Positions 9,608 through 35,884 of a DNA stretch of 42,548 bases are shown in pieces. The DNA comes from Actinomycetota bacterium (GTDB taxonomy: Bacteria; Actinomycetota; Acidimicrobiia; Spongiisociales; UBA5794), in contig JAADIG010000139.1 of assembly GCA_013151445.1 (NCBI GenBank), positions 1 through 42,548 of the forward strand, written 5' to 3'. Position 1 is the first letter of the stretch. Each line of letters starts with the position of its first letter. Under the pieces are notes generated by a model. It worked only from the letters and a program-made list of their open reading frames with translations. It was not told where the DNA came from and ran no database searches. The position numbers and the translations under genes are program-made.

Positions 9608-9810
9608 CGTCAACCCCTCGCTCAACACGGTCGCTCCGTAGCGCGACCGTGAACTGCTTGCCCACCCATGGGACACCCCGGCACGACAATAGTTCCCAGA
9701 TCTCCTCTATGCCCAGAATCCGGTAGTTCGCGGGGTCCCTGGTACTGATCGGACCCCTGGGCAGGCACTCCAAACCAGGCGGGGTCCGGTGCGTCCGGCT
9801 TGTGCGTCAC
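9608..9810 (-). pseudogene. Coding-like fragment, apparently frameshifted, upstream of the BON-like gene
   Basis: From a GTG at 9810 the minus strand reads MTHKPDAPDPAWFGVPAQG with GC-rich third positions. Good coding character then continues one frame over as RDPANYRILGIEEIWELL and PWVGKQFTVALRSDRVE. Removing one G from the run at 9754-9757 joins these into one frame. Removing another from the GGG at 9584-9586 would join that product to the BON-like membrane gene, giving one protein of about 200 residues. I recognise no family for this part. Either two overlapping genes exist, or one gene is broken by two homopolymer indels. Evidence is compositional only. Confidence 0.3.
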
Positions 9811-9820
9811 ACCTCGCCAG

Positions 9821-9826
9821 TACCCT
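9821..9826 (+). promoter_or_regulatory. Putative -10 box of the UvrD2-like gene (leaderless)
   Basis: TACCCT, then seven bases (TGGTTTC), then ATG at 9834. No ribosome-binding site is present. Confidence 0.5.
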
Positions 9827-9833
9827 TGGTTTC

Positions 9834-12630
9834 ATGACCATGTTCGCCCCAGCCACGCTTGGTCGTGGCATCGTCGTTGCGCCCGGCACACCACCGCCAG
9901 AGCCGTGGACCGAGGCGCCACGGTCAACAGTCAGCACCGCGACGCTGAACAACCCGAAAAACTTACGCACACTCATTGATACCCTGCACCGATACTGGGT
10001 CTCCCGCACCCCTCACGTCATCGAATGGGACTGTGAAGCCACGGCGCTTGGTACCCACGAAACCGACGAACGAGCCGTCTACGAACTGCCGACAGAGTGG
10101 CTCCCCCCGCTGGAGCGCCTCCGATTCCTCTGTTTCTCCAACAACTATGACGCCCGGACAGGAGAAGCAGTTTGGTGGTGGACGGCAAAGGCCGCCCACC
10201 TCATCACCTGCTCGCCATCGAACACTGCCGATGTGGTCGTCGATGGGGTCGACATGTGGATCGACGGTGGGCCACGGCAGACCTTCGACCTGGTGCTCAA
10301 CCATCCGGTCGTATCCTACGAGTCCATCGAACTCGCAAGACCACGAGTACTGCCCCAACGCGTTGCTGTCACCGGCGCCCTGGCCACAGATCAGCGAGAA
10401 GCCGTTGAACATGGCGCGGGCGCCGCCCGAATCATCGCTCCGGCAGGTTCGGGCAAAACACGCACCCTCACAGAGCGCCTCCGTTACCTACTCGAAGAGC
10501 TGGGTGTCGAAGCGGAGATTGTGACCGCCCTGGCGTACAACGACCGGGCAGCGGCAGAACTGCGGAACCGGCTTGGTGTCGATCGCAGCCTGGCGCGCAC
10601 TATCCATTCGCTTGGTTGGGAGATTCTCCGCGCGGCCCGCCCCGGATTAGACCTCATTGGTGAGATGGACGTGAGGCGGGCATTGGAGCGCTTTGTTTCT
10701 GTGCCTCGGCGCTCCAACACCGATGCGATCGGCCCGTACATCGAGGCGCTTGACCGAGTCCGGTCGGGGCTCGTCAACCCTGAAACGGTGGAGTCCGAAC
10801 GCGACGACGTACCCGGATTTGCTGCCGCATTTGAGCCATATCGAGAGTATCTTTACCGTCGCGGAGGGGTCGACCACGGTGAACAGATCTACGGCGCGAT
10901 CGAAGCTCTGATTCGTGACCCGGCCCTGCGAACCCGATGGCAGCAACGCTGCCGGCATCTCCTTGTCGATGAGTTCCAGGATCTCACACCGGCGTATCTG
11001 ATGCTTATTCGTCTCGTCGCTTCACCACAGCTCAACGTATTCGGTGTCGGCGACGACGATCAGGTCATCTACGGGTACGCCGGCGCCGATCCCAGCTTCC
11101 TGATCGACTTCGACACGTACTTCCCGAGTGCCGGCAAACACACGCTCTTGACGAACTACCGATCGCCGGGAGCGGTGGTCACCGCAACGATGAACCTGCT
11201 GTCATACAACAAACGTCGCATCAACAAGGAGATTTCGAGCACCGATGCCACCGCGGCCGCCGACTCGTTGCAGGTCCTCCGAGTGCCGACAGACACAATG
11301 GCGTCCGAGGCAGCCTCGCTCGTCGCCACATGGTGCACCGGCGGTGGATCACCCACCGACATCGCTGTCCTGGCTCGCGTCAACGCCGCGCTCCTCCCGG
11401 TGAAGGCAGCATTGGCGGATCTCGGTATATCGACGAACGACCAGCTCACCGCCCAGACGTTGCAGCGCACCGCGGCGCGAGCTCTGTTCGCCTGGCTGCG
11501 GGTGGCGATGCGGCCAGAGGCAATCTCCCGATCGGACCTGCTTGAGATCGTGCGGCGGCCATCACGAGGGTTGAACAGGCTCACCGCAGAATATGCGCCG
11601 CGACGACGCTTCGGTCTCAACGATCTTGGGCGTATCCGAGGCCAGCTTGACGACAAACCAGCACGTCGATGGGACGAATTCCTCGACGACATCACGACGA
11701 CCGTGGCTATGGCCCGCAGCGGTGATGCGTTGGCCACGGTGCGCCATATCATCACCCACGTGGGCCTTGCGACGTCGGCGGGTGGGCTCGACCACGGGCG
11801 AACGAACGCCGCGCGGCCAAGCCACACACGACCTCATCGCCATCGAGCGAGCCGCCAGTATCCACCGCGATCTGGACAGCTTTGCATCGTGGTTGACGGA
11901 TGCTCTCGACCAGAAATCAGACCCGGCCGGTGTCGTGCTGTCGTCGGTGCATCGCGTCAAGGGCATGGAATGGCCCCAGGTAGTCGTGTTCTCGGCAGAC
12001 GCCGGGTCGGTCCCGCACGCGCTATCGGACGATCATGAGGAGGAGCGGCGCGTGTTTCACGTCGCGATCACGCGCGGTATCGACAAGGTGCACATCTTCG
12101 CCGCCGCGGAACGGCCGTCACCCTTCCTCCGCGAACTGACAAGAAAGCTGGTGCCAGGTGACCGCGCCGTCGCACCAAAACGATCGAGCAACGCGATTCC
12201 CAAACGGAGCTCTCGATCCACCAAGAAGGTACCAGTCACGGGTGACCGGGTATGGGTGTTTGGCTACGAGGCAACGGTGACCGGTGTGTCCGGAAGTACT
12301 GTTGAAATTCAACTCGACGGTGGCTCACAGATGGACGTGAAGACAACCGACATTCGCAAGATTCTTCCCCGAGTTGTCACCCACGGACCGAGAAACGAGA
12401 CCGTCGTCGACACCCTCAAGGCGTGGCGGCTGGAGACAGCGCAAGGCCTCTCCGTGCCCGCGTACGTAGTTCTTCACGACAGGACGATTGATGAAATCGC
12501 TTCGGTGATGCCGATGGACGAATCCTCACTGTTGTCGATCCAGGGCATCGGCACATCCAAACTCGAACACTACGGGGATGACCTTCTCAGGATCGTTGAA
12601 GAGGGCCGCGAAGATCCAGGCGAGGAATAG
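9834..12630 (+). CDS. UvrD2-like superfamily I DNA helicase with HRDC tail, interrupted by one frameshift
   Basis: A UvrD/PcrA-type 3'-5' DNA helicase for DNA repair, about 930 residues if the frame is restored. Part one has motif I APAGSGKT (about 202-209), motif II LLVDEFQDLTPAYL, motif III GDDDQVIYGYAGAD and motif IV LTNYRSP. Near 11,786 the frame changes: the first frame runs into non-coding character and stops at 12,038, while coding continues +1 with motif V SSVHRVKGMEW and motif VI EERRVFHVAITRG. A C-terminal HRDC-like domain (about the last 75 residues) matches mycobacterial UvrD2. Dropping one G from GGG at 11,784-11,786 reads smoothly through. About 190 residues precede motif I, whereas UvrD2 starts almost at it. 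The frameshift may be a sequencing error or a real lesion. Confidence 0.8.
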
Positions 12631-13217: not shown

Positions 13218-15557
13218 TTACTCGCAGGGTCCAGGCGGGTTTGCCTTCTCCCACGCAGCGAGCGCCTTGGTGGACTGCACAATCTTGCCGCGTCCGCGCG
13301 CCGCCAGTCTGCTGATCTCGCGTGTGGTCTTGTATCTCTCGCGGTCTCCCTTGCGGCTGTAGGGTCCCCTGTCTTTGGCGGAATCCTTCTCGAGGTTTCC
13401 AACGGTGTAGACATTCACCCGGGTGACACATTCCCACATCGCCCCGCGGCACTCCCAGATCTGCGTCGGCTGGATAGAGACCACTTGATAGAAGTACGCC
13501 GGACGCATGTATACCGTGACGTTGTCGTCCATCCACTCCGTGATCTTGCCAGCGACAAGCGCCCCCAGGTTCGCCGCGGCGGCGAGACCAACGGCGATAG
13601 CCTCCGGCAGACTCGTCGGGACGCTCGGAATAACCTCGGCTGCCCCAAGCCCGGTGACAGTCCCCGTCACACCGTCAAGCGACCCCTTCACTATTTTCCC
13701 GGTCTGGAACGACGAGGCGGCCGAAGCGATGCTCTTGCCAGAACCGGCACCACCCAGAATGTTGCCGATCGTACCGAGTGTCATCCCGGCGCTCTTCAAA
13801 CCGGCTGTCATTGCCTTGCCATGTTCGTGTGATCCGTGTTTCGATGCGTCGTCGATCGTCACGATGACATCAAAGTCCGTATACAACTTGAATTTCACTG
13901 CCGGTCCGATCGGGACCGTCACCGGATCCGGCTGCCCCTTCGCGTCGCATCCGGTGTTCTTGCGTGGTTCACTCGACACCGGCGGGGTGTAAACGGACGG
14001 CGGTGATGGTGGGGTCGTTGGCGGCGTGCCACCCCCGTCATCGGGTGGTTTTGGTGGTTCCGGGGGCGGTGGTGGCGGAGCTGTTGCAGCTTCAACGCAG
14101 GCCTCGTATTCGGCGCGCGCCGCTTCCTCAGCTTCAAGCGCTGCGTTGTAGGTTGCGAGACGGCGCTCAACATCCTCGTTGGCGCGCTCGACTTCCCACT
14201 GCGCATCGGCAATCGGCTCGACAAGCCCATCGATCAACTCCTGGAGATCGTCATACTGGATGAGCTGGCCATCGAGCTTGACCATGTCGAGCCCGCCGGA
14301 ACCACCCCGCGGACCGCTCTGGGCCTGGAGATACTCATCCCGGGTCGCCTCCATCTCCATGAGGAAGAGCTGCCGAGCCTGAAAATTCTCATACGCGGAA
14401 CCGAGGAACTCCTCGGCGGTCTCACGTTGTCTGGTGAGGTCCTTCCACTTTGCCAGCAGCGGATCACAGTCCTTCACCGGCGACTCCTCGTCGTCCTTCT
14501 TGGTGAAGATGAGCAACGCACCACCAATGCCTACGATACCGATCCCGATCGGTATCCAGGGGAATGATCCCCCCGTGCCATCCTCGCCCGTGCCATCCTC
14601 GCCCGTGGCAGGATCGTCGCCGGGGGAAGTGATGGTCGTCGCTGGCGGTGGTGTCGTGGTCGTTGTTGTCGTAGTCGACGTTGTCGTTGTGGTCGCGACC
14701 TCGGGGATCGAGAGTGGGATCACGGGTGGAAACACGACGAGATCGTCGATGGTTCGCGGCACCGGTGGGTAGGCATTGATGACCGAGAGGCACGTCTCAC
14801 AGGCGCCGTAGGAACCATCGTGTACGTGGGAGCCGAACGCCCAGCGCATTTCGCCGTCGCCGCCATTGGCGATCAGTGTGTTCAAATCGACGGCGGCGAT
14901 CATCCAATCGGGACCGGCAGCAAAGAAACCAGAAAAAGGAACGGACGCAAATTCGTTGTTTGCATCGATGAGTTCAACGAACGGGGCTTCTCCTGGTTGC
15001 ATCTTGGCACTGAGGATCAGCGACCCGCCCTGCCAGGTATCGCCGGGGAATGCATCGATCGCCTCCCACCCAGGGGAACCCTCGAACCCGACGACAAAAT
15101 CGATTTGGACAAACCGGTCGACACCGCCTTCGCCTTCATCAACCGAGGTGCCAAGATTGGGGTCACGGCCCGAGAAGAACATCGCCATCGGTACCTCGGG
15201 TAACGACTCGCCGCTCCCAGTAGCAAAAATGGTCGCTTCGCCTCGAATGACATCGATGGTGTTGCCAAATCCAACAGTTCCGGGATCGAATATGCCAGCA
15301 CCCACAACGTCGGGTTGGGCATACGGGGCATCGTTCCTTCCAAGTGTCGGTACCCCGCGAATATCATTGGCGTAGCGGTATGCGGTCCCCTCGGGTAGGG
15401 CATTGAGCAGGTCGGCAACGTTCACCGGCGAATTCACTGCCCAGTCTGTCTGATCGATAACCGAGATCGGTGTCGGTGTATCTTGAGAGGATTGGGCTCC
15501 TGCGATTCCCGAGACCCCCAAGACAAACACCGCGATCGCGGCTCCGATTCGTTTCAC
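13218..15557 (-). CDS. Large secreted, membrane-anchored protein of unknown function
   Basis: About 779 residues from a GTG preceded by GGAAGGAAG. A signal peptide (MKRIGAAIAVFVLGVSGIAGA) leads into an extracellular domain of roughly 260 residues with a few Cys, including the pair CETC. A Thr-run and Pro linker follows (around 290-310), then acidic Gly repeats (GEDGTGEDGTGG), then one membrane span (PWIPIGIGIVGIGGALLIF) and a KK stop-transfer. Beyond it are a charged coiled coil (about 370-490), a Pro-rich linker, and a C-terminal domain with Gly/Ala-rich amphipathic segments and four Cys. I recognise no family. The order signal-ectodomain-linker-TM-coiled coil suggests a surface sensor or envelope scaffold, which is inference only. 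Confidence 0.75.
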   Translation of the reverse strand: MKRIGAAIAVFVLGVSGIAGAQSSQDTPTPISVIDQTDWAVNSPVNVADLLNALPEGTAYRYANDIRGVPTLGRNDAPYAQPDVVGAGIFDPGTVGFGNTIDVIRGEATIFATGSGESLPEVPMAMFFSGRDPNLGTSVDEGEGGVDRFVQIDFVVGFEGSPGWEAIDAFPGDTWQGGSLILSAKMQPGEAPFVELIDANNEFASVPFSGFFAAGPDWMIAAVDLNTLIANGGDGEMRWAFGSHVHDGSYGACETCLSVINAYPPVPRTIDDLVVFPPVIPLSIPEVATTTTTSTTTTTTTTPPPATTITSPGDDPATGEDGTGEDGTGGSFPWIPIGIGIVGIGGALLIFTKKDDEESPVKDCDPLLAKWKDLTRQRETAEEFLGSAYENFQARQLFLMEMEATRDEYLQAQSGPRGGSGGLDMVKLDGQLIQYDDLQELIDGLVEPIADAQWEVERANEDVERRLATYNAALEAEEAARAEYEACVEAATAPPPPPPEPPKPPDDGGGTPPTTPPSPPSVYTPPVSSEPRKNTGCDAKGQPDPVTVPIGPAVKFKLYTDFDVIVTIDDASKHGSHEHGKAMTAGLKSAGMTLGTIGNILGGAGSGKSIASAASSFQTGKIVKGSLDGVTGTVTGLGAAEVIPSVPTSLPEAIAVGLAAAANLGALVAGKITEWMDDNVTVYMRPAYFYQVVSIQPTQIWECRGAMWECVTRVNVYTVGNLEKDSAKDRGPYSRKGDRERYKTTREISRLAARGRGKIVQSTKALAAWEKANPPGPCE
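14575..14609 (-). repeat. 15-bp in-frame tandem repeat
   Basis: The unit GTGCCATCCTCGCCC (plus strand) occurs twice exactly, at 14575-14589 and 14590-14604, followed by a partial third copy. It encodes the GEDGT repeats of the linker before the membrane span. Copy number could vary between strains. Confidence 0.7.
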
Positions 15558-15635
15558 GTGCACTTCCTTCCTTCGCACACAGCCAATGTAGCGATAAGAA
15601 CTACTCCGCGTAGGCGGTCGACACCGGAGCGCGAG

Positions 15636-16217
15636 TTAGTCGTCGAACTCTTCACGCAGACGAACCGGAGAGCCCTGGTTGGGGAACTTGCCCTCAACGC
15701 CGTCGTAGAACTCCCGGAACTTGTCCATATCGGCGGAAATGTCGCCGGTGAGGTAGATCTCCGGACCGACGGTGGCGACCTTATTGGCGTAATCGACCGA
15801 TGTTGGCACCACCGGAATCCCTGCCGCAAATGCTATGTGATAGAACCCGCTGCGCCAGTACTCGGTCGCCTTGCGGGTCCCCTTTGGCGCAACAACCAAG
15901 GTGATGTCGTCCTTCTTTTCGATCGCGGCGACCATCTGTTCGACCATTCCCTGGCCACTGTCCCGCTGAACGGGGAGTATGTATCTGCCCATGAACCATC
16001 CAAAAGGGGGTTTCACGAGTGTGTGCTTTCCGATGGCCATTGCGGGCATACGGAATTTCTTGATCACGGCAAGAAACAGGAGGAAGTCCCAGTTCGACGT
16101 GTGTGGGGCTCCAAGAGCGACATACTTGCGGGCGACCGGCCGTTCACCGACGAACGACCAACCGCGAGCTTTCATGAACCATAAACAGAGTGTCTTCACC
16201 CGCTCATGCTCGCTCAC
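15636..16217 (-). CDS. Small PlsC-like acyltransferase
   Basis: A 193-residue protein of the glycerolipid/1-acyl-glycerol-3-phosphate acyltransferase superfamily. The catalytic HX4D motif is HTSNWD (H39, D44). The second block FMGRYILPVQRDSG and third block LVVAPKGTRKATEYWRSGFYHIA correspond to the acceptor-binding motifs (usually EGTR, here KGTR). A proline block, GIPVVPTSVDY, follows. There is no membrane anchor and it is shorter than PlsC (about 240). The same short form occurs in lysophospholipid acyltransferase-like proteins of unknown substrate. The start is GTG without a clear ribosome-binding site. It lies 52 bp downstream of the Rieske-ThDP gene on the same strand and may share its transcript. 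Confidence 0.8.
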   Translation of the reverse strand: MSEHERVKTLCLWFMKARGWSFVGERPVARKYVALGAPHTSNWDFLLFLAVIKKFRMPAMAIGKHTLVKPPFGWFMGRYILPVQRDSGQGMVEQMVAAIEKKDDITLVVAPKGTRKATEYWRSGFYHIAFAAGIPVVPTSVDYANKVATVGPEIYLTGDISADMDKFREFYDGVEGKFPNQGSPVRLREEFDD

Positions 16218-16269: not shown

Positions 16270-18336
16270 CTACAGGAGTTCGGTGTCGGTCAGGATCTCG
16301 ACGGTCGCGGGTCCATCAAAAGCCATGGCGCTTGCCATGGCATCCTCGAGGTTGCCAGCGGCTTCGACGCGGATACCCAATCCCCCGCACGACGTGACGT
16401 ACTCGGCGATGTTCGGGTTGCTAAGCGATGTCTGCCACACCGGCCAGGCTCCGGCTCGCTGTTCCTTCGTAATCTTGCCAAGTTCACCATTGTTGAGGAG
16501 CACATGGGTGAGATTCATCCCGTACTTAACTGCGGTATTGACCTCCCAGGCGTATTGGCCGAAACCACCATCACCGGTGATGGCAAACACGGGGCGATTC
16601 GCAAACTGCGCCCAGTGGTCGTCGTCGGAGAAGAGGTGTGCACGAGTCGCCGCCCACGCCCCCATCGCGGCCGGATACCCAAAGCCGATCGAACCGAGAT
16701 AACCGCTCATCAAGACCGCTTGATCACCCGAGCTCTCGAAGTAGCGGCCGAAGCTGTACGTGTTGTTGCCGACATCGACCGCAAATATCGCATCCCGCGG
16801 GGCGAGGCGAGTCAGCACGTCGAATATCCGGGCGGAGTTCATTCCGGCACCGAGGTCGTCGGTCATCCTGCTGACCTTCTCGGCTCGCCAGATCTCCCAC
16901 CGGGCGGCAACCTCGGAGGTGTGATCGACGGATTGGTGACGTCCCTGGATGCGATCGAGTAGGAGACGTGCGGTCGTACCGACCTCACCCCAGACCGGCA
17001 CATCGATGCTGTGGGTCTTGCCGAGGTGCATGCGATCGAAATCGACTTGAATTGTTGGCCGCTTGGGTGTGATTCCGGTGTGGTTGCTAAAACTCGCACC
17101 GAACACGAGCAGGGTGTCGCATTCATTCATGAACCAACTTGCGATCGGCGTCCCGGATCGGCCGAGCACACCCGCACCGAGAACATGACCCGACGTCGCT
17201 GAGCCTGCTGCACCGGGACCGTTGCAGCCCATGTCACCGATGAGACCCTTCGCCTTGAAGGTTGTGACGACCGGGCAACGAAGTTCCTCCGCGAGGGCGA
17301 GCACCGCATCCATGGCAAATCGTGCACCGTGTCCGACAACGATGAGTGGCCGTTTCGACTGTGCGAGCAGGCTCGTCGCCTGGTCAAGTACTCCTGTCGG
17401 AGGAATGATCGCATTGTCAGCGATGCGGCCCTCGGGGCCACCGGCTTTTGCGCTCTCGCCGGCGGGAAGTGTTTGGACGTCATCGGGAAAGATGAGGTGT
17501 GCGACATCACGGTTCAGTATCGAACTCTTGAGCGCCAGATTCATCAGCTCGGCGTGGTTCGACCCCGGAAGCGCTAGGTGACTAAACCCGGCTACGGCGC
17601 TAAACGCCTCCTTGAGCGGAAGTTCCTGAAATGCCCCTGGGCCGAACACCTGCTGGCGGACCTGGCCGGTCAAGGCCAGAAGCGGTGCGCGATCTACCTT
17701 GGCATCCCAGCATCCCGTCAACAGATTCGTCGCACCCGGTCCGGCAATGGCGAGACAAGCCGCAGGACGGTCCGTGAGTTTCCCAAAGGCGCTCGCGGCG
17801 AAGGCGGCCGCACCCTCGTGACGAATCCCGATGTACTCGATCTTCCCGGCTTCCTCCTGGATGCGCACCGCATCGGCGAGACCGAGGTTGCTGTGCCCCA
17901 CCATCCCGAACACGTGGGTGACCCCCCAGTTGACCATCGTCTCGGCCATCACGTCCGTCACCGTCCGCACCCGCATCGGTTCGCTCGCCAGACCAACAAA
18001 GATCTCACCGTCACGGATCTCGACCGGGAACGCAGCGATCCCATCGTCGAAGCCACCCGGGGTGTTGCCGGTTACCGGGTCGAAGTCCCAGCCATGCCAC
18101 GGGCAGCGAAGATAACACTCACCCTCATCGGTACATTCGATAGAACCCTCGCCAAGGGGTCCCCCTTGATGCGGACACCGGTTGTCGAGCGCATGAAACG
18201 ACCCGTCAACATGAGTGAGTGCGAACTGATGTGTCGTCGAACCAACGGTCACACTCACCGTCTTGACCCGCCCCTCGGGAAGATCACCAACGCTTGCGAC
18301 CCTATGCCACCTCGTTGCCCCGTCACGATCGTTCAC
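16270..18336 (-). CDS. Rieske [2Fe-2S] domain fused to a thiamine-diphosphate enzyme (pyruvate oxidase/acetolactate synthase type)
   Basis: A 688-residue fusion. Residues 10-116 are a Rieske ferredoxin domain with cluster ligands C54, H56 (CPHQGGPLGEG) and C78, H81 (CPWHGWDFD). Residues 120-688 are a full ThDP enzyme. The PYR domain has the catalytic Glu in RHEGAAAFAA (E174) and the AGPGATNL turn. A central domain follows. The PP domain has the metal/ThDP motif from GDGGFGQ (588-590) to NN (615-616). Overall it resembles PoxB/AHAS-type 2-oxo acid enzymes. The Rieske domain could take electrons from the bound hydroxyethyl intermediate, which is inference. GGGAGAG five bases before the GTG supports the start, and the Rieske part is in frame with no break. 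The substrate is unknown. Confidence 0.88.
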   Translation of the reverse strand: MNDRDGATRWHRVASVGDLPEGRVKTVSVTVGSTTHQFALTHVDGSFHALDNRCPHQGGPLGEGSIECTDEGECYLRCPWHGWDFDPVTGNTPGGFDDGIAAFPVEIRDGEIFVGLASEPMRVRTVTDVMAETMVNWGVTHVFGMVGHSNLGLADAVRIQEEAGKIEYIGIRHEGAAAFAASAFGKLTDRPAACLAIAGPGATNLLTGCWDAKVDRAPLLALTGQVRQQVFGPGAFQELPLKEAFSAVAGFSHLALPGSNHAELMNLALKSSILNRDVAHLIFPDDVQTLPAGESAKAGGPEGRIADNAIIPPTGVLDQATSLLAQSKRPLIVVGHGARFAMDAVLALAEELRCPVVTTFKAKGLIGDMGCNGPGAAGSATSGHVLGAGVLGRSGTPIASWFMNECDTLLVFGASFSNHTGITPKRPTIQVDFDRMHLGKTHSIDVPVWGEVGTTARLLLDRIQGRHQSVDHTSEVAARWEIWRAEKVSRMTDDLGAGMNSARIFDVLTRLAPRDAIFAVDVGNNTYSFGRYFESSGDQAVLMSGYLGSIGFGYPAAMGAWAATRAHLFSDDDHWAQFANRPVFAITGDGGFGQYAWEVNTAVKYGMNLTHVLLNNGELGKITKEQRAGAWPVWQTSLSNPNIAEYVTSCGGLGIRVEAAGNLEDAMASAMAFDGPATVEILTDTELL

Positions 18337-18621
18337 GTCGACTCTCCCTGCATTCTCCGGCCCAGCAACAATCTAACCATCTGCCGCGACACGGTACACA
18401 GGTAGCAGCAACGGAACCCCCTGGCCGAGTGCGGCGGACCGCACCTACAGGCCCCCGAGCTGTTGTCAGCAACGGTTCGGACCACGTATCCAACGTATCA
18501 ACCACCGATTATCACCAGCGCCCCGTTGACCCGACCGGCCGATTCGAAGGACATATCCGTCACCTGCACGGCCTGTTGGCACTGATCTGCATCACCAGTC
18601 ACCGGGGACTCTGTGGGCACG
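18337..18621. other. Intergenic region between divergent Rieske-ThDP and MFS genes
   Basis: About 285 bp with no convincing gene. It must hold the promoters of both divergent genes. A short hairpin, GTGCGG-CGGA-CCGCAC, lies near 18,430. I see no TPP riboswitch motif on the minus strand. Confidence 0.4.
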
Positions 18622-31977: not shown

Positions 31978-34524
31978 CTAGAAAGGTAAGGAAGTCGCCC
32001 GGCCGAGCGACACAAAGGATGCCGCGGTGATCCGTTCAACATCGGTACTCGCCGTGGCTACCACACTCGCAAGGGCCTCAGCCGAGTCCATTCCCCTCGA
32101 CATCGCTTCGTAGAATCCACTCATGACGGCAGCTGTGTACTCGTCGGAGACTACGAACAGTGGTGCCACGACGGTCGTCGCACCCATCCCCAGGAATGCG
32201 ACACCAAGACTCATGACGTCCGCCCCCGGTTTGCTGGAAGATGCGGCGGCGTCGCAAGCTGCAAGCACCACAAACGGTGGTGCGGCGCCGACCGCCTCGA
32301 CGTCATAGATTCGAAACGGTCCGTCCTCGAGCTCGAGCGAGCTGAACATTGGATTATCGAAACGAGGCGTGGCGTGGGCTGCGATATGTGCAACACCGAC
32401 TGATCCGAGGGAACGCAATAACTCGTCGCCGGTACGCACCACCGAAGCGTCCAGCCGTGCTGCAACGGCAGCAATCTCTTGCTCGGCGGCGTCAAGCCTT
32501 GGACCGGCCACAACGACGGAGCCATCGCGGCGTGCAGCGGGTGAGCGCATCCACGTTTGAACCGCGGGAACGACCTCCACAGGTACCGACGTCGCCAACA
32601 ACCAGGGAACAGCCTGGGTCGATGGAGACGGAACAATGAGCAGCCTCGCCGCAGATCCGGCGGGGTCGAGTAACGATGTGCGGACCTTGTCTGCATGGTG
32701 TTTCACCAAGTCACATGCGGCTGAAATCCCGCGGAGAGATCCAACACCGCGGGCAACCCGACGCACAGCACTAACAAGCTGTCGAAGTTCCTCACCCACC
32801 GTCGCCAAGTCGCCGACAACAACGACTCGGCTGCCGACGGCATCGACAACTAACGCCATGAGATCCGGATCGTGGTCGAAGAACATGACCAGGGTGCGGT
32901 CCCCCAGCGCGCCCACAAGAGCTTCGAAACCCAGGCCGGGCGACACATCCTGGTGAGCTCCAGTGCTGACGCGAGCGGCGGTTGCGAGTTCGGATTCACG
33001 GATCTGGATCTCGCGCAAGAGATCGGGGTTCTCCGGGTCGCTCACCACTGCAGCAGCGACCTTCCGCAGGGCAACGCGTGCGGCGTCCACCGACTGGGTG
33101 TGCGCCATACGCTCCAACGCCAGTGAGCCCGCTCGCACCCACTCCAGCCACCGAAAGAGCAGGGATGGATCGGCCTTATCTAGAGCTATGTCGATAGCTA
33201 AACGAGCGATCTCCTCGCCCTGATGAGCAGCAAGCAGACGCAATTCCGTGGCGCCGAGCGACGAACGGTACGAGTCAAGGGCCGCCGCGGATTTCTCAAG
33301 GTAGGAAAGGGCAGCATCGTGTGAATCGGCCAACGCTGCATTCGCTATCGATCTGAGAAGGTCCAGTTCAAGACCCTCCGCGTCGGAACTGACACCGGCC
33401 GCAAGCTGGTGGGCGACGTCGGCGAATCCCATGCGTACGGCGAGCGGCACAGCAGCGAGACGAACATGTGCCGCATCGACCCCCTCCTCCGCATCGGTGT
33501 CTGCAGAGACCGACAGGAGGGTTGCAAATGTCCGCTCATCGGCGACACCGTTGGCGAGCCGAACTCTCGCTCCGGCGAGCAGCAGGTCCGGGCTGTACCG
33601 GGATTGAACCGAGGGTGTGCCGACGGTTTCGACCACACGCAGGGCTTCTTCCTTTTTCCCAGTCCGCATGTAGACATCGATCAACTGCAGGTAACCGTGG
33701 CGCAGCACAATGTCGTTGCCGTCGTGTGCCTCGAGGCGCGGAATCGCAGACTCCAACACCTCGATGGCTTCCTCATAGAGACCGGCGGCAATGAGTACGT
33801 CCGCTCGTTCCATGTGGCCGACGAGGTGGTCGGGCACATGGTTGTCGTAGAGTTCCCCGGCAATGCTCTGCCACTGCAACGCGGCTGGCATCTTGCCCAG
33901 ATCGGCGTGTGCTCGGGCCAGATGCAGTGCGGCGTCCGCGGCGGTGGCCGGATGCCGGTTTGCGCTCGCCGTCGTATAGACCGTCTCGAGATCATGAATG
34001 GCGGCTTCGAGCCTTCCAAGACCCAGGTGCATGGACCCGCGGTTTCCGTAGACGAGCTCGACAAGGCTTGCCTCCTCGAGTTCGAAACGATCGCACACCC
34101 CATCCAACAACGCTATCGCTTCGCAATAACGTGCTGCCTGCCCAAGGATAAAGGCGTGTTGCAACTCCGCCTTCATGAGCTCTTCTCCGTCGAGAAGAGA
34201 ACTTGCCCGCTCAATCGTGTGGAGTGCTCTTGGAATATCACCACCGCCGGCGTAGTCGAATGCGAGGCTCCGGAGCGTTTCACCCAAGAGTTGGGTATTC
34301 CCGACGGATTGGGCAAGCGCGGCGGCACGCTCCAGATACTTGATGGCAACGTCCGAGGCGTACACCATGCGATTGGCGAGTCCGATCGTCGATAGGGCGA
34401 TGATTTCGGCCTCCACCCCGGGCTCTTCGGCGAGGACCGCTTCCGCTTCACGAATCGCACGCCGTGGGTCACCCCTGCTGAACGCATAGGCGTGCCGGGC
34501 GCGCTCTACCGATGACGGGGTCAC
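31978..34524 (-). CDS. TPR-CHAT protein (caspase-like protease with TPR sensor region)
   Basis: An 848-residue protein. Residues 1 to about 480 are repeated helix pairs of TPR type, for example the repeats around AIKYLERAAALAQSVGN, ALHTIERASSLLDG, AIHDLETVYTTASA and AIEVLESAIPRLEAHD. The C-terminal part is a CHAT domain, clan CD with caspases and separase. H717 lies in VAHIAAHATP and C757 in FVVLAACDAA, the expected catalytic dyad. There is no signal peptide or membrane span, so it should act in the cytoplasm. The start GTG overlaps the stop of a 30-codon ORF (GTGA), and an upstream subtilase gene is on the same strand. No other start codon exists in this frame back to the subtilase. The proteolytic target is unknown. 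Confidence 0.88.
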   Translation of the reverse strand: MTPSSVERARHAYAFSRGDPRRAIREAEAVLAEEPGVEAEIIALSTIGLANRMVYASDVAIKYLERAAALAQSVGNTQLLGETLRSLAFDYAGGGDIPRALHTIERASSLLDGEELMKAELQHAFILGQAARYCEAIALLDGVCDRFELEEASLVELVYGNRGSMHLGLGRLEAAIHDLETVYTTASANRHPATAADAALHLARAHADLGKMPAALQWQSIAGELYDNHVPDHLVGHMERADVLIAAGLYEEAIEVLESAIPRLEAHDGNDIVLRHGYLQLIDVYMRTGKKEEALRVVETVGTPSVQSRYSPDLLLAGARVRLANGVADERTFATLLSVSADTDAEEGVDAAHVRLAAVPLAVRMGFADVAHQLAAGVSSDAEGLELDLLRSIANAALADSHDAALSYLEKSAAALDSYRSSLGATELRLLAAHQGEEIARLAIDIALDKADPSLLFRWLEWVRAGSLALERMAHTQSVDAARVALRKVAAAVVSDPENPDLLREIQIRESELATAARVSTGAHQDVSPGLGFEALVGALGDRTLVMFFDHDPDLMALVVDAVGSRVVVVGDLATVGEELRQLVSAVRRVARGVGSLRGISAACDLVKHHADKVRTSLLDPAGSAARLLIVPSPSTQAVPWLLATSVPVEVVPAVQTWMRSPAARRDGSVVVAGPRLDAAEQEIAAVAARLDASVVRTGDELLRSLGSVGVAHIAAHATPRFDNPMFSSLELEDGPFRIYDVEAVGAAPPFVVLAACDAAASSSKPGADVMSLGVAFLGMGATTVVAPLFVVSDEYTAAVMSGFYEAMSRGMDSAEALASVVATASTDVERITAASFVSLGRATSLPF

Positions 34525-34613
34525 GATCGGTATCCCGTGGGCAGGTTCAGTTGCGGGTCGCCTCTCCGACCGGACCTGGCTGGCTGGCTGGCACCGAGAT
34601 CTCTCTGTAACAC
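34521..34613 (-). CDS. 30-codon coupling ORF between subtilase and CHAT genes
   Basis: A GTG-started frame of 30 codons, with GGGAGG nine bases upstream and its TGA overlapping the GTG of the CHAT gene. The peptide begins MLQRDLGASQPARSGRRG and ends LPTGYRS, and is basic. The CHAT gene has only a weak ribosome-binding site of its own, so this ORF probably delivers ribosomes to it by termination-reinitiation. Whether the peptide itself has a role is open. Confidence 0.45.
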   Translation of the reverse strand: MLQRDLGASQPARSGRRGDPQLNLPTGYRS

Positions 34614-34630
34614 CCCCGTCGACCTCCCGA

Positions 34631-35884
34631 CTAGAAGAGCGCTTCCAAGATGTCGGAAACCGACGGCACCGAACCACCGACAGCACCGGCGGCGACACCC
34701 GCAGCGATGGGAGCGGCAAAGGAGGTACCGGTGAAGAGGGCCCAGCCCTTGAAGTTCTGCTTCGAGACGAAATCGCCGGTGTTCTTCTCTCCGCCCTCGA
34801 TCGTGTAGGTACCGGTCAGGAATGGCGCCGGTACACGAACCCCCGGGGCCGCAAGTTGCGCACACACACCGCTGTTTGACCATGGCGCCAGCGCCAGCTT
34901 TGGTAACCCGGCGTACGGCGCCAGCACGACCTTGGCGGCGCCGCGGGCATACGCCAGATCCATTGCACTCGACTTCCAGGCACCAACACCGACAACATCG
35001 GGGTCTGACGCCGGGTACACCGTTGGATCGTCGCCACTGTTGCCTGCGGATGCGATCACCACGGTGGACCCCAAGTACGGATCAAGGGCCCGTGCGGTGG
35101 CGGGCATCGCTCCCGACCGGGTCGAGCCGCCAAGCGGCAGGACAAGCATGTGTACCCGATGTTCGCCGAGCAGTCGCTCGATCGCATCGGCAAGCGCCGT
35201 GTCGCTCATCGTGCCGGGAACATCACCCTTTGCGGTCGCGACGGTTGCCGTGACGACCCGAGATTCTGGAGCGAGCTGCTTAATGATGCTGACGACGGCG
35301 TTGCCGTGTCCGACGGTCACACTGTGCGTAGATCGCTCAGCGGGCAGTGCTCCCACTACGTCAAAGTCAACACCTTCCGTCGCCCAGGACGGATGTCCAG
35401 CGGCAACCGGATCATAGAAAAATGAGTCAATCACGCCGATCGTCACGCACTCGCCTCTGCCCTTCAGCGGTCTTGTCGCGATCTTCGCCGGGTCCACAGC
35501 CTGCGGGCGCAGCACTGCAAGTCCTCCAAGGTGGAAGTGTGTTGTCAGGACATGATTCGGTTCGACTGCGAGCGGACCACTCAGAAGATTCACGAGTTGG
35601 TCAATTCGGGTCCGTGCATCAACCTCGATCGTGACCAGGCCGGTGTCACCGACCGGTGTCGTTGGACACTCAGCGATATCGATGCGGCGCAGAGCTACCA
35701 GGACGTCGTCCACCGCCCCAGAGTCCGCCACCAGCTCACCGGTAACGTAATAGTAGGCGCCACCGACACCTTTCCCCGAGTGACGGATCCGCTTACCCCC
35801 CACGCGAGCCCGTGGCCCATCGAGCGGGTTGGCCGGCGAACGTGGTTTCCCTTTGCTTGGTCCTTTGCCGTGTCCCGCACTCAT
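34631..35884 (-). CDS. Cytoplasmic S8 (subtilisin-like) serine protease
   Basis: A 417-residue S8 peptidase. The catalytic triad is D153 (IGVIDSFFYD), H193 (VGHGNAVVSII) and S388 (FTGTSFAAPIAAG). The oxyanion Asn is N282 (ASAGNSGDD). About 145 residues precede the protease domain, starting with a Gly/Lys/Pro-rich stretch. No signal peptide or propeptide is evident, so the enzyme should be cytoplasmic, which is unusual for S8 enzymes. GGGAG six bases before the ATG supports the start. It heads a minus-strand operon with the CHAT gene and is divergent from a sigma factor gene 93 bp away. Co-occurrence with CHAT suggests a protease relay, which is inference. Confidence 0.9.
   Translation of the reverse strand: MSAGHGKGPSKGKPRSPANPLDGPRARVGGKRIRHSGKGVGGAYYYVTGELVADSGAVDDVLVALRRIDIAECPTTPVGDTGLVTIEVDARTRIDQLVNLLSGPLAVEPNHVLTTHFHLGGLAVLRPQAVDPAKIATRPLKGRGECVTIGVIDSFFYDPVAAGHPSWATEGVDFDVVGALPAERSTHSVTVGHGNAVVSIIKQLAPESRVVTATVATAKGDVPGTMSDTALADAIERLLGEHRVHMLVLPLGGSTRSGAMPATARALDPYLGSTVVIASAGNSGDDPTVYPASDPDVVGVGAWKSSAMDLAYARGAAKVVLAPYAGLPKLALAPWSNSGVCAQLAAPGVRVPAPFLTGTYTIEGGEKNTGDFVSKQNFKGWALFTGTSFAAPIAAGVAAGAVGGSVPSVSDILEALF

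Follow-up and report, generated by a model that had tools for sequence, protein, structure and literature searches.

The ThDP-dependent 2-oxo-acid oxidoreductases are known to feed their electrons to FAD/quinone, O2, lipoamide/NAD or [4Fe-4S] ferredoxins. In PoxB a C-terminal segment attaches to the lipid of the membrane and gives quinone access to the active site (cf. the title of PDB entry 3eya). The POX/SpxB enzymes of Bacillota, which lack an iron-sulfur domain, pass their electrons to O2 or quinone. The PFOR/OFOR enzymes do tie ThDP chemistry to iron-sulfur electron transfer, with a different domain set and [4Fe-4S] clusters. Rieske proteins of the ferredoxin type, such as CarAc, NdoA, T4moC and BphF, are electron carriers with a potential of about -0.15 V, and these four are free-standing carriers for oxygenases. 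Here we describe a protein in which a Rieske domain with the same ligand motif is permanently tied to a ThDP enzyme, i.e., a Cys2His2 Rieske [2Fe-2S] center on a PoxB fold.

The gene lies in a stretch of 42,548 nucleotides (hereafter the window), which corresponds to contig C26 of an actinomycetote assembly of 3.07 Mb in 159 contigs that is 98% complete. A preliminary description had recognized here a Rieske domain and a pyruvate-oxidase-type ThDP enzyme in one uninterrupted frame, with the four Rieske ligands, the ThDP catalytic Glu and the GDG-NN motif intact, and each of these features is present as it had been described (Table 1). An hmmscan of the 688-aa protein recovered only the Rieske and the TPP_enzyme N, M and C domains, all far over the Pfam cut-offs (54.2 bits against 20.3 for the Rieske match, which has the CxH...CxxH ligand set), and found no PFOR-type domain; the G+C content per codon position is coding-like in the Rieske and ThDP parts alike.

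Table 1. Coordinates of the fusion gene, its domains and neighboring genes (window positions as plain ranges; genes at relatives' loci prefixed by the locus)
Feature	Position	Strand	Basis or remark
Rieske-ThDP fusion gene, 688 aa, GTG start	16270..18336	-	ORF, Pfam, recurrence in 115 full-length homologs
Rieske [2Fe-2S] ferredoxin-type domain, residues 10-91, ligands C54/H56/C78/H81	18064..18309	-	PF00355 1.4e-14
ThDP N (PYR) domain, residues 125-239; catalytic E174, H148-S149-N150, F236-Q237	17620..17964	-	TPP_enzyme_N 2.1e-30; invariance
Middle domain, residues 318-457; FAD-type segments GxGAR, TFKxKG, GVLGRSG, SFSNHTG, QVD	16966..17385	-	TPP_enzyme_M 2.2e-27
ThDP C (PP) domain, residues 521-681; GDGG...NN Mg/ThDP motif, invariant K621	16294..16776	-	TPP_enzyme_C 1.5e-27
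Translation start GTG with preceding AGGGAGAG, Shine-Dalgarno-like	18322..18353	-	sequence
Acyltransferase-domain gene (PF01553), 52 bp downstream of fusion, same strand	15636..16217	-	absent from recurring neighbor clusters
Rieske-GltS (N-terminal Rieske on lone FMN/[3Fe-4S] GltS domain)	L110:6131-7753	-	neighbor locus
Rieske-GltS	L056:5503-7116	+	neighbor locus
GltS protein with two CDGSH [2Fe-2S] domains replacing Rieske	L079:2426-3931	+	beside Rieske-ThDP
GltS protein with two CDGSH [2Fe-2S] domains replacing Rieske	L094:9963-11492	+	beside Rieske-ThDP
Ferric-reductase-like membrane domain with C-terminal Rieske	L101:8626-9675	+	1 of 9 loci
Ferric-reductase-like membrane domain with C-terminal Rieske	L093:4659-5726	-	1 of 9 loci
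DUF5996 gene	L056:7129-7965	+	1 of 22 loci

The genes around the fusion in the window itself, namely that for the downstream acyltransferase, that for a divergent MFS transporter upstream and that for a YgjP-like peptidase, were considered as pathway partners and rejected, being absent from the clusters of neighbors that recur at relatives' loci; the transporter and peptidase genes are syntenic with the fusion in one congener. Elsewhere in the window, a UvrD-type helicase with an HRDC domain is split over two frames (9789-12038 and 11593-12630, both on the + strand), with the N part in one and the UvrD_C end and HRDC in the other, a frameshift that marks a pseudogene or else stems from an error of assembly. 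The window also codes for a 786-aa, probably secreted protein with a signal-like start, Thr-/Pro-rich low-complexity stretches and no Pfam match (13218-15578, - strand) and a 913-aa protein combining TPR repeats with a CHAT protease domain (31978-34719, - strand).

How widespread the architecture is had been left uncertain; a scan of GTDB species genomes recovered at least 577 loci that encode a relative, spread over many phyla and haloarchaea. The best 80 of these matches were taken for study; they are the most similar ones and hence a biased sample, with members in Planctomycetota, Acidobacteriota, Pseudomonadota, Gemmatimonadota, Myxococcota, Nitrospirota and others. The closest fused relatives, from the same genus, are 80% identical, and full-length fused homologs elsewhere in the order, in other genera and families, extend down to 46%; the Rieske motif is retained even in the most divergent homologs examined (46-47%). 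Below the fused family (at least 46%) identity drops to about 32%, at which level the next matches are ThDP enzymes without the fusion; no unfused homolog above 40% identity was found. The gene is also borne by four haloarchaeal plasmids (57% identity) and a Mycobacteroides plasmid (51%), on which it is annotated merely as "thiamine pyrophosphate-binding protein". Each of C54, H56, C78 and H81 is present in 115/115 full-length homologs, as are E174, F236, Q237, D521, D589, G590, G591 and K621, while G588 and N616, the second Asn of the NN motif, are each kept in 111/115. This invariance points to long purifying selection acting on both halves jointly. A chance frame, a misassembly or a recent accidental fusion devoid of function is thus vanishingly improbable: nothing was found in its favor, the ligands are complete in bacteria of different phyla and in archaea, and the recurrence of the fusion in independent genomes at 46-80% identity rules out a chance frame, local chimera or misassembly. 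The Rieske-ThDP fusion is genuine and old.

On sequence grounds the ThDP core belongs to the pyruvate-oxidase branch, in keeping with the type named in the preliminary description. In a maximum-likelihood tree of ThDP cores, which includes few references and some long branches, the fused proteins form one clade (support 100/100) that joins PoxB, the Metabacillus and Listeria POX and PRK08273-like enzymes at 100/98 as a separate sister clade; IlvI, the AHAS of the same genome and Gcl fall in a different clade. The fusion shares with PoxB and the pyruvate:quinone oxidoreductases (PQO) the ThDP N-M-C core, the catalytic Glu and the GDG...NN motif, and differs from them in its Rieske domain; E. 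coli PoxB is its top PDB sequence match, over residues 124-685. The best unfused sequence relatives are the Bacillota POX/SpxB enzymes (31-33% identity), with which it has a short-form middle domain in common. No curated NCBIfam cut-off is reached, the best score being 326 of 742 bits for PRK08611 (PRK09124, 254 against 792; PRK06546, 243 against 893; TIGR02720 for POX, 238 against 638; TIGR00118 for AHAS, 216 against 538), and the fusion is therefore not filed as PoxB, POX or AHAS. Together, these cut-offs and the tree led us to reject an AHAS or Gcl identity. The fold comparison, which covered residues 121-688, i.e., the protein without its Rieske domain, gives tied or nearly tied scores and hence does not separate PoxB (3eya, Z 41.0, 519 residues aligned at 2.4 A), the Corynebacterium glutamicum PQO (9ev6, Z 40.2, 530 aligned at 2.6 A), HKA synthase (8xod, Z 41.2) and AHAS-type enzymes; cyclohexane-1,2-dione hydrolase (4d5g) follows at Z 39.9, with 122-688 of the model matched to 2-550. 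A literature search on PQO structure returned nothing useful.

An alignment of the fused family with PoxB, Metabacillus POX, IlvI, Gcl and Oxc bears on the cofactor of the middle domain. The segments that form the nucleotide site of the FAD-binding relatives (Table 1) are kept and are nearly invariant in the fused family. Oxc binds ADP, not FAD, and its GxxGxxG loop is deleted, whereas the fused family retains this loop. AHAS and glyoxylate carboligase share the fold, domain order and FAD-type segments with the fusion, which differs from them in having the PoxB/POX FAD loop, five residues shorter. FAD is hence a likely, predicted occupant of the middle domain, and would probably sit between ThDP and the Rieske cluster. 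AHAS-type relatives bind FAD without net redox use, so an FAD-like site is in itself no proof of oxidation. The fused family also lacks the Arg of the GTQFPYR segment of PoxB (FDDR in AHAS), and has R393-S394 in the GxxGxxG loop where the references have M-H or L-I. These substitutions mean that FAD could have been lost and that electrons might pass from ThDP directly to the Rieske cluster, a PFOR-like logic in a PoxB fold; we consider this quite improbable in view of the near-invariance of the nucleotide-site segments in a family that has not suffered the loop deletion of Oxc. Of the oxidation of the ThDP intermediate by a Rieske cluster that had been predicted from the fusion, the redox coupling thus stands as the natural reading of the invariant ligands and the oxidase branch, while its directness sits poorly with the conserved FAD-type segments.

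Two further residues set the fused family apart. K621 occupies the position of PoxB F465, a residue that helps couple ThDP to FAD, and this change counts against the oxidative reading given below. H148, invariant in an 86-row alignment, takes the place of D27 in PoxB and, going by residue numbers, has H28 as its counterpart in cyclohexane-1,2-dione hydrolase. Together they suggest that the substrate may differ from pyruvate and be more polar.

The best PDB sequence matches of the Rieske domain are the ferredoxins CarAc, NdoA, T4moC and BphF, and by this likeness it is of the soluble ferredoxin type; as the extra disulfide cysteines of the high-potential, bc1-type Rieske proteins are absent, its cluster is predicted to be of low potential. 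In the predicted model of the fusion (mean pLDDT 92.4, pTM 0.91) the linker is short and confidently modeled (pLDDT 89-94 over residues 111-130), and therefore the Rieske domain is probably docked at a fixed position. At the other end of the protein, the PoxB-type tail is missing in 114/115 homologs, which have 12 residues after the last conserved Pro (P676); PoxB has 52 residues there and a Metabacillus POX has 45.

Hence, we propose, at about even confidence, that the fusion is a soluble enzyme of the cytosol, a 2-oxo-acid oxidoreductase that passes its electrons, probably by way of FAD, out through the Rieske cluster to a protein partner and not to membrane quinone. Its substrate, either pyruvate or a more polar 2-oxo acid, would add to ThDP and be decarboxylated; the two electrons of the resulting carbanion-enamine would then be removed, probably by the FAD of the middle domain, and handed singly to the N-terminal low-potential Rieske cluster and onward to the partner. 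The Rieske domain would thereby stand in for the C-terminal tail that, bound to lipid, gives PoxB access to the membrane quinone. The potential of a ferredoxin-type Rieske cluster lies above that of the hydroxyethyl-ThDP couple, and outward electron flow would therefore be downhill. The parts of this mechanism that we infer are the FAD occupancy, an oxidative rather than carboligating chemistry, the direction of the electrons, the substrate and the partner.

Candidates for the partner come from gene neighborhoods, which were surveyed by clustering the ORFs around the Rieske-ThDP gene at the sampled loci. The commonest neighbor, seen in 33 loci and often immediately upstream on the same strand, codes for a 500-570 aa protein joining a Rieske to a Glu_synthase (GltS) domain. 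It occurs in this setting in Planctomycetota, Pseudomonadota, Acidobacteriota, Myxococcota, Nitrospirota, Actinomycetota and haloarchaea, and the CX5CX4C motif expected for a [3Fe-4S] cluster is kept in 28/28 long GltS proteins. The genome under study also has a Rieske-GltS gene, away from the window gene on contig C157 (L126/L129). Over 99 genomes, 28 code for both Rieske-ThDP and Rieske-GltS, 17 and 9 for one alone and 45 for neither, giving a one-sided Fisher p of 3e-6 (0.0025 within the family), uncorrected for phylogeny and assembly gaps. In two loci the Rieske domain of the GltS protein is replaced by two CDGSH domains, a swap between His-ligated [2Fe-2S] modules that would be expected for an electron-transfer role; CDGSH-Glu_synthase proteins are on record (PMC5859297).

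A second type of neighbor, found in nine loci, couples a Ferric_reduct domain to a C-terminal Rieske domain; its gene often adjoins one whose 250-310 aa product has conserved cysteines but matches nothing in Pfam. By neighborhood, the Rieske-GltS and ferric-reductase-Rieske proteins are the candidate electron acceptors. The opposite direction, wherein a reductase or the Rieske-GltS flavoenzyme would supply the Rieske domain with electrons for a reductive step at ThDP/FAD, fits with an FMN-type partner gene nearby in 33 loci and with the usual role of flavoprotein reductases as electron donors to Rieske ferredoxins. It nevertheless strikes us as improbable, as the nearest clade is oxidative and we know of no reductive ThDP enzyme of this fold. 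Genes for DUF5996 proteins, with a conserved WPHHFD motif, adjoin or lie near the Rieske-ThDP gene in 22 loci; the AF2 model of one such neighbor (pLDDT 92.2) found no match among PDB folds under E 0.15, and a literature search on DUF5996 yielded nothing useful. Na_H_Exchanger genes lie nearby in 16 loci. The haloarchaeal plasmid islands (L035-L038) have stress-type neighborhoods, with genes for mercuric reductase/dihydrolipoyl-dehydrogenase-like proteins, peroxiredoxin, pirin, quinol monooxygenase, Na+/H+ antiporters or K+ channels. As a long shot, electrons taken from a 2-oxo acid by the Rieske-ThDP enzyme might pass from Rieske to Rieske into the FMN and [3Fe-4S] centers of Rieske-GltS for an NAD(P)H-independent reductive amination to glutamate, which, in lineages that also bear the Na+/H+ antiporter and K+ channel genes, would make up a K+-glutamate module for stress or osmotic adaptation.

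A different type of association is seen in three relatives from another family (L148, L154 and L155), where the gene order runs from a divergent XRE-family regulator, RamB-like by position, through malate synthase, isocitrate lyase and Rieske-ThDP to a GAPDH-II-like protein. A model identified the malate synthase of L148, and those of L154 and L155 were called from the agreement of their start and length with it. This glyoxylate-bypass cluster would tie the enzyme to C2/acetate metabolism in those relatives; the setting with malate synthase and isocitrate lyase fits C2 metabolism, but also glyoxylate carboligation. It thereby lends some color to a reading of the fusion as a redox switch, in which a non-oxidative decarboxylase or carboligase, similar to acetolactate synthase or glyoxylate carboligase and with a structural FAD, is gated by a Rieske domain that senses redox state or oxygen. 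The polar, invariant H148 and K621 and the many non-redox enzymes among the fold relatives (AHAS, Gcl, 8xod and 4d5g), scoring close to or level with PoxB, speak for the same reading. We nonetheless regard it as unlikely, while granting it a real share of the probability: the fused clade joins the oxidase branch and not AHAS/Gcl, ferredoxin-type Rieske proteins are established carriers of electrons, and recurring partners with Rieske or CDGSH domains suit a wire better than a sensor. Outward transfer from a 2-oxo acid to a protein partner thus continues to be the reading that we favor.

The domains and the fold are known, and their combination is visible in databases; no paper describing a Rieske-ThDP fusion, biochemically or otherwise, was found in the open-access literature (open-licence PMC papers). 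In several hundred genomes the fused family has been hidden under the name "thiamine pyrophosphate-binding protein". Its linkage to Rieske- or CDGSH-bearing GltS-like enzymes points to an unstudied redox module common to bacteria and haloarchaea, and if this widespread, strictly conserved branch does use its Rieske cluster, ThDP chemistry would gain one more exit for its electrons.
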